DNA of 64,000 nt, taken from Arcanobacterium ihumii (GTDB lineage: Bacteria; Actinomycetota; Actinomycetes; Actinomycetales; Actinomycetaceae). Under the pieces are notes generated by a model. The model did no database searches. It was given only the letters and a program-made list of their open reading frames with translations, and was not told the DNA's origin. The DNA lies in contig NZ_UWOS01000001.1 in assembly GCF_900604515.1 (NCBI RefSeq), positions 372,001 through 436,000 on the forward strand, read 5' to 3'. Below are positions 33,731 to 36,119 of the stretch, in pieces; position 1 is the first letter of the stretch; each line of letters begins with the position of its first letter. A program made the translations under genes and the position numbers.

Positions 33731-34252
33731 TCAGGCAGCGGATTCCTGCTTCTCGCGCAGGGCGTCTACGGTGCGCACCGTCTTGGACAGTGGCGCCTTG
33801 AATACGTATGCAGCCTTGTAAAGCGAAGCCTTGAGAACTCCAGCAGTCTTGGCCAGCAGAACCTCACGGGATTCGAGATCGGCGAGCTTCTGAACATCTT
33901 CAGCATTGAGAAGATTGCCTTCAAGAACTCCAGCCTTAACGACGAGTGCCTTGTTTTCCTTTGCAAAATTCTTAATAGCCTTAGCTGCGGAAGCGATGTC
34001 ACCGGTAACAAATGCCAGCGCGGTCGGACCCTTGAGGTCGTCATCGAGTCCTTCGATGCCGGCTTCATGGGCTGCAATGCGTGCGAGGGTGTTCTTAGCA
34101 ACCTTGTACTCAGCGTCTGTACCGAGAGCGCGACGAAGAGTCTTCATTTGCGCTACGGTCAAACCGCGGTATTCAGTCACGAGAACGGCCGAAGACTTGC
34201 GGAAATCTTCCGTAAGCTCTGCGATCGCTGCAGACTTGTCGGTCCGTGCCAT
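33731..34252 (-). CDS. rplJ: 50S ribosomal protein L10
   Basis: Base of the ribosomal stalk; binds L7/L12 dimers through its C-terminal helix. The 173 residues contain KSAAIAELTEDFRKSSAVLVTEYRGLTV and GPTALAFVTGDIASAAKAI. In many bacteria L10 with L12 represses its own synthesis by binding the leader RNA, and the region upstream looks like such a leader. Confidence 0.98.
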   Translation of the reverse strand: MARTDKSAAIAELTEDFRKSSAVLVTEYRGLTVAQMKTLRRALGTDAEYKVAKNTLARIAAHEAGIEGLDDDLKGPTALAFVTGDIASAAKAIKNFAKENKALVVKAGVLEGNLLNAEDVQKLADLESREVLLAKTAGVLKASLYKAAYVFKAPLSKTVRTVDALREKQESAA

Positions 34253-34253
34253 G

Positions 34254-34429
34254 GGACCTCCTTCCGAATAGTAGCCGCAAAAGTCGGAAGCTTAGCAAAA
34301 CAAAAACCCTCGCGCAGCGCACGAGGGTTAGAGGCAAACTACTGCCTGAAAAATCGTACCTGCGCTGGCTTCGCATTGCGAACTTCACCCCGTTGGCAAC
34401 GGGCGACCTGCGGTCTTGGGCAGAATATA
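34254..34429 (-). promoter_or_regulatory. Probable L10 leader with promoter and attenuator hairpin
   Basis: A -10-like TATATT lies at 34429-34424. The transcript would then contain AAGACCGCAGGTCGCC and, about 40 bases later, CAGCGCAGGTACG, which resemble the conserved elements of ribosomal protein L10 leaders. A terminator-like hairpin follows just before rplJ. The match to the L10 leader family is by eye and needs a covariance search. Confidence 0.5.
34295..34328 (-). terminator. Terminator or attenuator before rplJ
   Basis: ACCCTCGTG pairs with CGCGAGGGT over nine base pairs and is followed by TTTTTGTTTTGC, a textbook Rho-independent terminator. It ends about 45 bases before the rplJ ATG. 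It may attenuate rplJL transcription, or end transcription from the genes upstream. Confidence 0.8.
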
Positions 34430-34528
34430 CGCTACCTGCGCCGGCGTCGTCATGCAAGGAATAGGCAAGCTTCGTGAGCGAAACAACAGAGAATTTGATC
34501 GAAACACATATTTTGACAGGATAGCCGT

Positions 34529-35254
34529 TCAACCTTCGTATTTTTCAAACTCGGCGACGATCTTTTTCAGTTTGTCAGTTGGCTCAAAGCCATCCCAATA
34601 TTCCTCGCACCGATGAGGGTTGTTGTATGAATACTCAGCTATAAATAGATTGTCATTGACCGCGTAGAAGGGGTCTGCACCAATGAACATATCTCGCCGG
34701 AACTGTTCCACACGCGAATCGTGCCGGTTATACTCAATAATTTGTAGGCAAACTTCGGGAATCGCCGTCACAGACACTGCATTATAGCTGCTCTGTTCTC
34801 GTTCATCGGATACTACCTCACCTGTCACATAACCATTATTGACGAGATAAGTTACAACCTCACGTGATGATAGACCCGGATCTACGTAGGGAAGCAAGAA
34901 GTAGTACCAATCCCCATAAGTATCAGGTCTTTCCCTCCAGCGCTTAGCACCCTCGTTATTATGAACCCACGTATGGTAATTTTTTGTATGTTGAGCTATT
35001 GCGAAAGAACGGTAAGTGAACCCATCATCTGAGGCCATACCCGCGAATTTCGTAACATATCCAATATGGAAGACTTTGCCATTGGGATAAGCCTGCCCCA
35101 CGAAACTACCCGCTTTAATTCTCCCCGCGAATGTTCCCCAATCATAAGCTCTACGGGTAATACCCCCATGTCGTGCAAAGTCGTCAGCTACTGTCCAAGC
35201 ACGAGAGGTATACACTGCACCAATAGCAGTAGTGCCGGTTTTGTAAAACCACAC
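34529..35254 (-). pseudogene. Amidase-like (Amidase_6-type) domain protein, apparently lacking its N-terminus
   Basis: A frame of 241 codons opening at GTG 35254. The segment WFYKTG...SRAWTVADDFARHGGI, then HIGYVTK and FAIAQHTKNYHTW, resembles the middle and end of Amidase_6 domains, which usually carry a catalytic Cys in a DCxNFxSQ motif before the WxY part and His residues in these later motifs. No such Cys motif and no signal peptide are present. A stop codon sits four codons upstream. A second ATG at 35306, with GGAG before it, encodes the signal-like MKRLLAAVLA and then stops, in another frame. So this looks like a decayed or truncated secreted peptidase gene. The family link is inferred from motif order only; a short intact gene cannot be excluded. 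It lies between rplJ and udk. Confidence 0.45.
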
Positions 35255-35498
35255 CGAACCTTGTTATTGATAACTAGGCAAGTACCGCTGCAAGTAAACG
35301 CTTCATCTGGATCTCCGTCCATGATTAGTTTTCTCAATTATGATGGAGAATATAGGAATCACGCATTAAGTTTCGATAATGCTGAGGTTTCCAAAGGCAC
35401 AGGAAAATCAATCCAAAAGTTGAATGCACTAGAAAAGAAAATAGCTGAGGAACACCGGTCAGCAGATTTGCCGACAAGCTCGAAAGAAAAACGCCGAA

Positions 35499-36119
35499 TT
35501 AGCGTGTAGAAACTAAATGCTCGATCCGGTGGAACAAAATATCGAGTGCAACAAGGTTGTGCCCACCCTCAGGGATAATGAGATCTGCATGTCGTTTAGA
35601 TGGCTCGACGTACAGTTCGTGCATCGGTTTAACCGTCGCAAGGTACTGGAGTTCAACAGAGTTAATGTCACGTCCGCGCTCTAAAACGTCACGCTTGATA
35701 CGGCGCAAAATGCGAACATCGGCGTCGGTATCAACGAATAGTTTCAAATCAAAAAGGTCACAAAGCTGAGGTTCGGCAAAAATAAGGATACCTTCAACCA
35801 AAATGACCGGAGCTGGCTCAATACGCATCGTGTTTGCAGAACGATTGTGGTCTGCAAAATCGTAAATTGGGCTATCAATCGCATTACCAGCAATCAAATC
35901 ACGAAGTTGAGCAGCCATAAAATCATTGTCAAAGGCATCCAGCGAATCAAAGTTGAGCTTTGAACGTTGCTCATAGGTCAACCCTGTATGGGATTTATAG
36001 TAGTTATCGTGATAAACAACCGTCGTCTTGGAATCGAAACGTTCGGCGATTGCTTGAGTGAGAGTGGTTTTACCACTGCCAGTCCCACCAGCAATACCGA
36101 TAACAAATGGTTTTACCAC
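35499..36119 (-). CDS. udk: Uridine kinase
   Basis: Phosphorylates uridine and cytidine in pyrimidine salvage. The 206 residues begin MVKPFVIGIAGGTGSGKTTL with the P-loop GGTGSGKT at 11-18. YHDNYYK and the nucleoside-site region with ILVEGILIF and RRIKRDVLERGR are typical. It appears to be transcribed alone. Confidence 0.95.
   Translation of the reverse strand: MVKPFVIGIAGGTGSGKTTLTQAIAERFDSKTTVVYHDNYYKSHTGLTYEQRSKLNFDSLDAFDNDFMAAQLRDLIAGNAIDSPIYDFADHNRSANTMRIEPAPVILVEGILIFAEPQLCDLFDLKLFVDTDADVRILRRIKRDVLERGRDINSVELQYLATVKPMHELYVEPSKRHADLIIPEGGHNLVALDILFHRIEHLVSTR

Follow-up and report, generated by a model that had tools for sequence, protein, structure and literature searches.

PMC10318531 groups Amidase_6 proteins with the peptidoglycan-related papain-like enzymes, and PMC10653849 places two uncharacterised Bacillus members, YhbB and YjcM, among them. 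The intact relatives of the sequence described here are, in our reading, probably exported cell-wall amidases.

The window analysed here, a stretch of 64,000 nucleotides from Arcanobacterium ihumii, carries between udk and rplJ a 241-codon open frame on the minus strand (34529..35254). Judged from its sequence, this ORF is very probably the pseudogene remnant of a gene for a secreted Amidase_6-family protein, a papain-like, putative cell-wall amidase. The reading is favoured because the back half of the domain is present, because neither the Cys half nor a working signal peptide is there, and because a second copy elsewhere in the genome is more decayed still. New relative to a preliminary description of the locus is that the last ~125 codons of the frame are not amidase.

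An Amidase_6 back half between udk and rplJ

The frame list and the profile match together divide the 241 codons into an amidase remnant and a tail. The frame runs from a GTG at 35254 to 34529, being open already from 35263, and has AAGG four bases 5' of the GTG. The amidase part (34928..35257, minus strand), delimited by profile search and comparison with relatives, corresponds to ORF residues 1-109 and to positions 50-149 of a 152-position Amidase_6 profile, with E 7.9e-18 for the sequence. The domain match itself has 60.8 bits (E 1.1e-17 for this stretch). The profile was made from the Amidase_6 domains of 16 relatives; 18 loci had been named for it, of which L068 and L069 failed the motif search. 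The search space comprised 1,495 six-frame segments of at least 30 residues from the window, plus L029. The late Amidase_6 motifs noticed in the preliminary description are thus borne out, but by one of two routes. The curated profiles that it had proposed as a check, Amidase_6 and NlpC/P60, gave no match (zero for the ORF in Pfam, including NlpC/P60, and zero in NCBIfam and PHROGs, at E up to 1), whereas the profile made from members of the family itself did. The absence of a profile match, which it had named as counting against the idea, therefore holds for the curated libraries and fails for the family-built profile.

The ORF keeps the His of a HIGYV motif and an AQHTKNY motif (Gln-His-x-x-Asn). 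Its His 63 is aligned with a His conserved in seven of the eight rows of alignment A3 (Arg in L007), which we take to be the catalytic His of Amidase_6. Profile positions 1-49 hold an Asp-Cys-x-Asn-Phe segment with the catalytic Cys. This part is absent from the ORF, as had been claimed, and no upstream frame has it: within 35200-35600, none of the three minus-strand frames contains a Cys-x-Asn-Phe-like motif, and the next-best segment of at least 30 residues in the window reached only E 0.98 and matched another region of the profile. Nor could a signal peptide be seen in the ORF by eye, again in agreement with the preliminary description. The ORF has matches with E of at most 0.001 in 7 of the 212 other genomes of the bacterial family. 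The best relative (genome G177) is 51% identical over residues 18-109, and all five of the relatives scanned have the Cys segment and lie above the Pfam Amidase_6 cut-off. Pattern scans of genome contigs gave 19 pattern matches with the ORF, none of them confirmed, and 105 with alignment A4, of which one, in Peptidiphaga gingivicola, was confirmed.

The codon signal of the frame is weak, as for foreign or decaying DNA. Its codon score lies near the bottom of coding DNA (among 60 coding pieces, 3 fall below the domain part and 2 below the tail), and pieces read in the wrong frame score as high in 27 of 300 cases for the domain part and 36 of 300 for the tail. Two structure models are poor, with pLDDT 49 (mean) and 43, and a fold search with the first of these found nothing at E 0.001, so no fold is claimed. 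A PDB sequence search with the ORF returned histone matches alone, at E 0.65 or more, which were taken as noise. The suggestion that the frame might be a new short variant or an immunity-type fold received no positive support, and neither PHROGs nor PADLOC contained a phage or defence family matching the ORF at E up to 1. A chance ORF is ruled out by the Amidase_6 profile match and by the paralogue in the same genome. A mobile element was also rejected: the ORF has no phage or plasmid match at E 0.01, an exact-peptide-pattern scan of viral contigs gave zero matches, and there are no inverted repeats within 34250-35520.

The surrounding interval, the probable relic start and the second copy

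The udk-rplJ interval measures 1,246 bp in the window and 315, 318, 227 and 351 bp in the genus relatives G069, G070, G071 and G076. The extra block (34489..35498, unstranded, from interval comparison) is absent in all four genus relatives in which udk and rplJ are adjacent. (In G074 the two genes lie on separate contigs, and in G072, G073, G075 and G077 udk was not matched at the cut-off used.) In the two closest relatives, udk and the conserved rplJ leader are about 80 bp apart, and homology with G070 ends with udk and restarts at ~34488, just upstream of that leader. The simplest reading is that the block was gained in this lineage; losses in other lineages are possible. The full-length version of the gene that the preliminary description expected in this interval was not found in any of these four relatives, all with intervals of 227-351 bp.

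Both flanks of the block deserve a remark. The udk gene (uridine kinase; 35499-36119, minus strand) was present in 6 of 10 genus genomes at E 1e-20, and this neighbour of rplJ is therefore itself patchy. Upstream of rplJ, the segment 34291-34438 (minus strand) gives a full-length match to the Rfam L10_leader that is below the gathering score (27.4 against 44; E 0.042). Much of its length is conserved in four aligned genus relatives, and it is probably a divergent actinobacterial L10 leader.

Just 5' of the ORF, at 35274..35317 (minus strand), the sequence contains a GGAG at normal spacing from an ATG at 35306, followed by codons for MKRLLAAVLA and a TAG at 35276-35274, in a frame that differs from that of the ORF. 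This is as the preliminary description had it. The combination of a Shine-Dalgarno-like site, an ATG, a basic residue and six hydrophobic residues out of seven arose 56 times when the 244 bp upstream were dinucleotide-shuffled 20,000 times, and the element is probably what remains of the original start and signal peptide. DNA relatives of the 244 bp were limited, outside the genome itself, to matches of 22-29 bases in 4 of the 212 family genomes; the one that covers the relic start, in L094, sits within an unrelated gene. The second copy has no counterpart of MKRLLAAVLA, its N-terminal region also being gone.

That second copy lies at L029 8016-8580, between what are presumably ispF and an MFS gene, and is 65% identical to the ORF over residues 55-105. 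Its front half is above the Pfam Amidase_6 cut-off (38.4 bits against 23.2) with one TAG inside. The residue at its Cys position is not Cys, its frame contains a stop, 28 residues have been lost internally, and the copy is plainly dead. It was also the one place that the Amidase_6 searches reported in this genome, and they found no intact member of the family in it. More widely, the family is scattered over 24 of 213 genomes of the bacterial family, 15 of 36 genera and 2 of 10 genomes of the genus, the present genome being counted in these tallies solely through its broken second copy. Between the two copies, pN is 0.21 and pS 0.82 over 61 domain codons, and both therefore descend from genes once constrained; over 50 tail codons the values are 0.49 and 0.78. 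The low pN relative to pS is a sign of past constraint, not of present function. Elsewhere, the Amidase_6 genes at L056, L061, L076 and L077 (G092, G019 and one of those in G015) are apparently broken by stops or shifts, and decay of the family therefore seems recurrent.

The orphan tail

What, then, is the rest of the frame? The tail (34529..34912, minus strand; about residues 115-241) is an orphan by virtue of searches that gave no credible relatives outside the genus. None was found in 297 genomes of the order (seven other genomes at E 0.03-0.08), in 213 of the family (one other genome at E 0.045) or in 396 of the phylum, where there were matches at E 0.007 and 0.016. The former of these is to the opposite strand of a 568-residue frame, presumably that of an ATPase subunit. 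Plasmids gave nothing at E 10, phages one match at E 3, NCBIfam and Pfam nothing at E 10, and PDB sequences nothing at E 5. The codon positions of the tail are gene-like, with GC1 0.56, GC2 0.35 and GC3 0.46.

The tail is likewise missing from the amidases themselves. All 19 open frames of relatives outside the genome that reach at least profile position 136 are without it, 18 of them having 0-10 residues behind the profile match and one having 29 (L068, where the match stops at 136), against 132 in the window ORF. These lengths were measured by profile at 26 of 28 loci, all but L045 and L008; L061, L070, L076 and L077 are broken pieces, the G072 member, which a contig end cuts, was left out, and the weak Amidase_6 candidates L073 and L074 gave no profile match at E 0.001. 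A motif-based count agrees, with 17 frames ending 124-144 residues behind the Cys (28 loci scanned, of which 22 gave a frame).

Behind the second copy, in another frame, there is a match to tail residues 191-240, with 27% identity over 52 residues and 29.3 bits; its E of 5e-5 applies to that small search. None of 2,000 tail shuffles, run without composition correction, reached this score, the maximum being 24.3. In G070, 22 codons of the tail's end are kept between ispF and the MFS gene (pN 0.08, pS 0.39), and in G069 blastn found none. The last codons of the tail-like stretch overlap the end of the MFS gene on the opposite strand. A perfect 11-bp hairpin (L029 8060-8095; z -2.75) lies within the tail-like frame, between the second remnant and the convergent MFS gene, and the stretch could therefore be kept as a terminator.

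The tail is probably an ancestral extension of the amidase or a partner gene. Of these, it is possible, if by no means probable, that it was once a separate downstream gene, encoding, for example, an immunity protein or other partner of the amidase, and was fused to it by decay; this is compatible with the pseudogene reading. None of the 19 relatives carries the tail and their ends fall near its beginning, and tail sequence lies behind the amidase in both copies, in the second in another frame. On the other hand, domain and tail share one frame in the window copy, no ribosome site and start between them could be seen by eye, and no free-standing relative was found in 213 family genomes at E 0.1 (apart from the one match at 0.045) or in 396 phylum genomes. 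More tentatively, the tail might represent a domain or partner protein, so far undescribed, that accompanied a secreted Amidase_6 enzyme in the genus, holding it at the surface or protecting the producer, for example. What is left of it would then be remnants at three loci, two in this genome and one in a relative's. It is unlikely that the second copy is followed by tail-like sequence through chance and that the tail is specific to the window copy, for instance through read-through into intergenic DNA. The identity of just 27% over 52 residues would allow this, as would the fact that part of the stretch is the 11-bp hairpin and possible terminator, but order and place are right, the score exceeds the best of the 2,000 shuffles, and the 22 codons in G070 are kept with low pN. 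Whatever its origin, the tail would gain importance only with the discovery of an intact gene and a way to test its role.

A proposed deletion, decay and the known Amidase_6 proteins

Given a decayed amidase gene, how did it come to its present form? The preliminary description had proposed a deletion or a frameshift in a secreted peptidase gene. The decayed amidase is supported, and a deletion is favoured over a simple frameshift, since no upstream frame contains the missing half and the genome searches located it nowhere else but in the dead second copy. A frameshift, programmed or simple, was rejected, the Cys half being in no frame upstream. We infer a single deletion, with one end inside the codons of the signal peptide and the other immediately past the Cys segment. 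It would have put the relic start out of frame with the back half: reading from that start meets a stop after ten codons, and the internal GTG is the one place from which the back half could still be translated. Such a product would be cytoplasmic, without a nucleophile and catalytically dead. The tail would have been attached to the amidase, or directly behind it, before the copies decayed, and the gene itself is probably an acquisition of part of the genus that is now being lost. No relative with an intact copy at the udk-rplJ site, which would display the deletion, was found.

A long-dead gene would not normally stay open, and the 241 codons without a stop therefore count against a pseudogene. 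Other points against it are the silence of the curated libraries on the ORF, the missing counterpart of MKRLLAAVLA in the second copy, and the failure to find a DNA relative of the upstream 244 bp in the bacterial family or an intact copy at this site. That the frame is a small gene still working without catalysis, its cytoplasmic product from the GTG using the amidase back half and tail for binding or regulation, is nevertheless very unlikely: the unbroken frame, the AAGG four bases before the GTG and the gene-like codon positions of the tail speak for it, but the truncation has removed the core Cys helix, the form is absent from the 19 relatives that reach the end of the profile, the structure model is of low confidence (mean pLDDT 49) and the codon signal is weak. 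As a pseudogene, the locus is an ordinary finding. It points to a cell-wall amidase family that is gained and lost among these actinobacteria and whose remains can pass for a fresh 241-codon gene in annotation.

How does the ORF compare with known systems? With the Tae3-type amidase effectors, named together with Amidase_6 in PMC10318531, it has the papain-like amidase class in common, but it is without the catalytic Cys. With YhbB and YjcM of Bacillus subtilis, whose genes a table of PMC10653849 lists as uncharacterised under Amidase_6, it shares the Pfam family as given in that table. The closest comparison is with the Actinomycetaceae members of Amidase_6 (PF12671), with which the back half of the ORF aligns and shares the His and Gln-His-x-x-Asn motifs. 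It differs from them in being without the Cys segment, the N-terminal region and the signal peptide, and in having an extra tail of ~125 residues.
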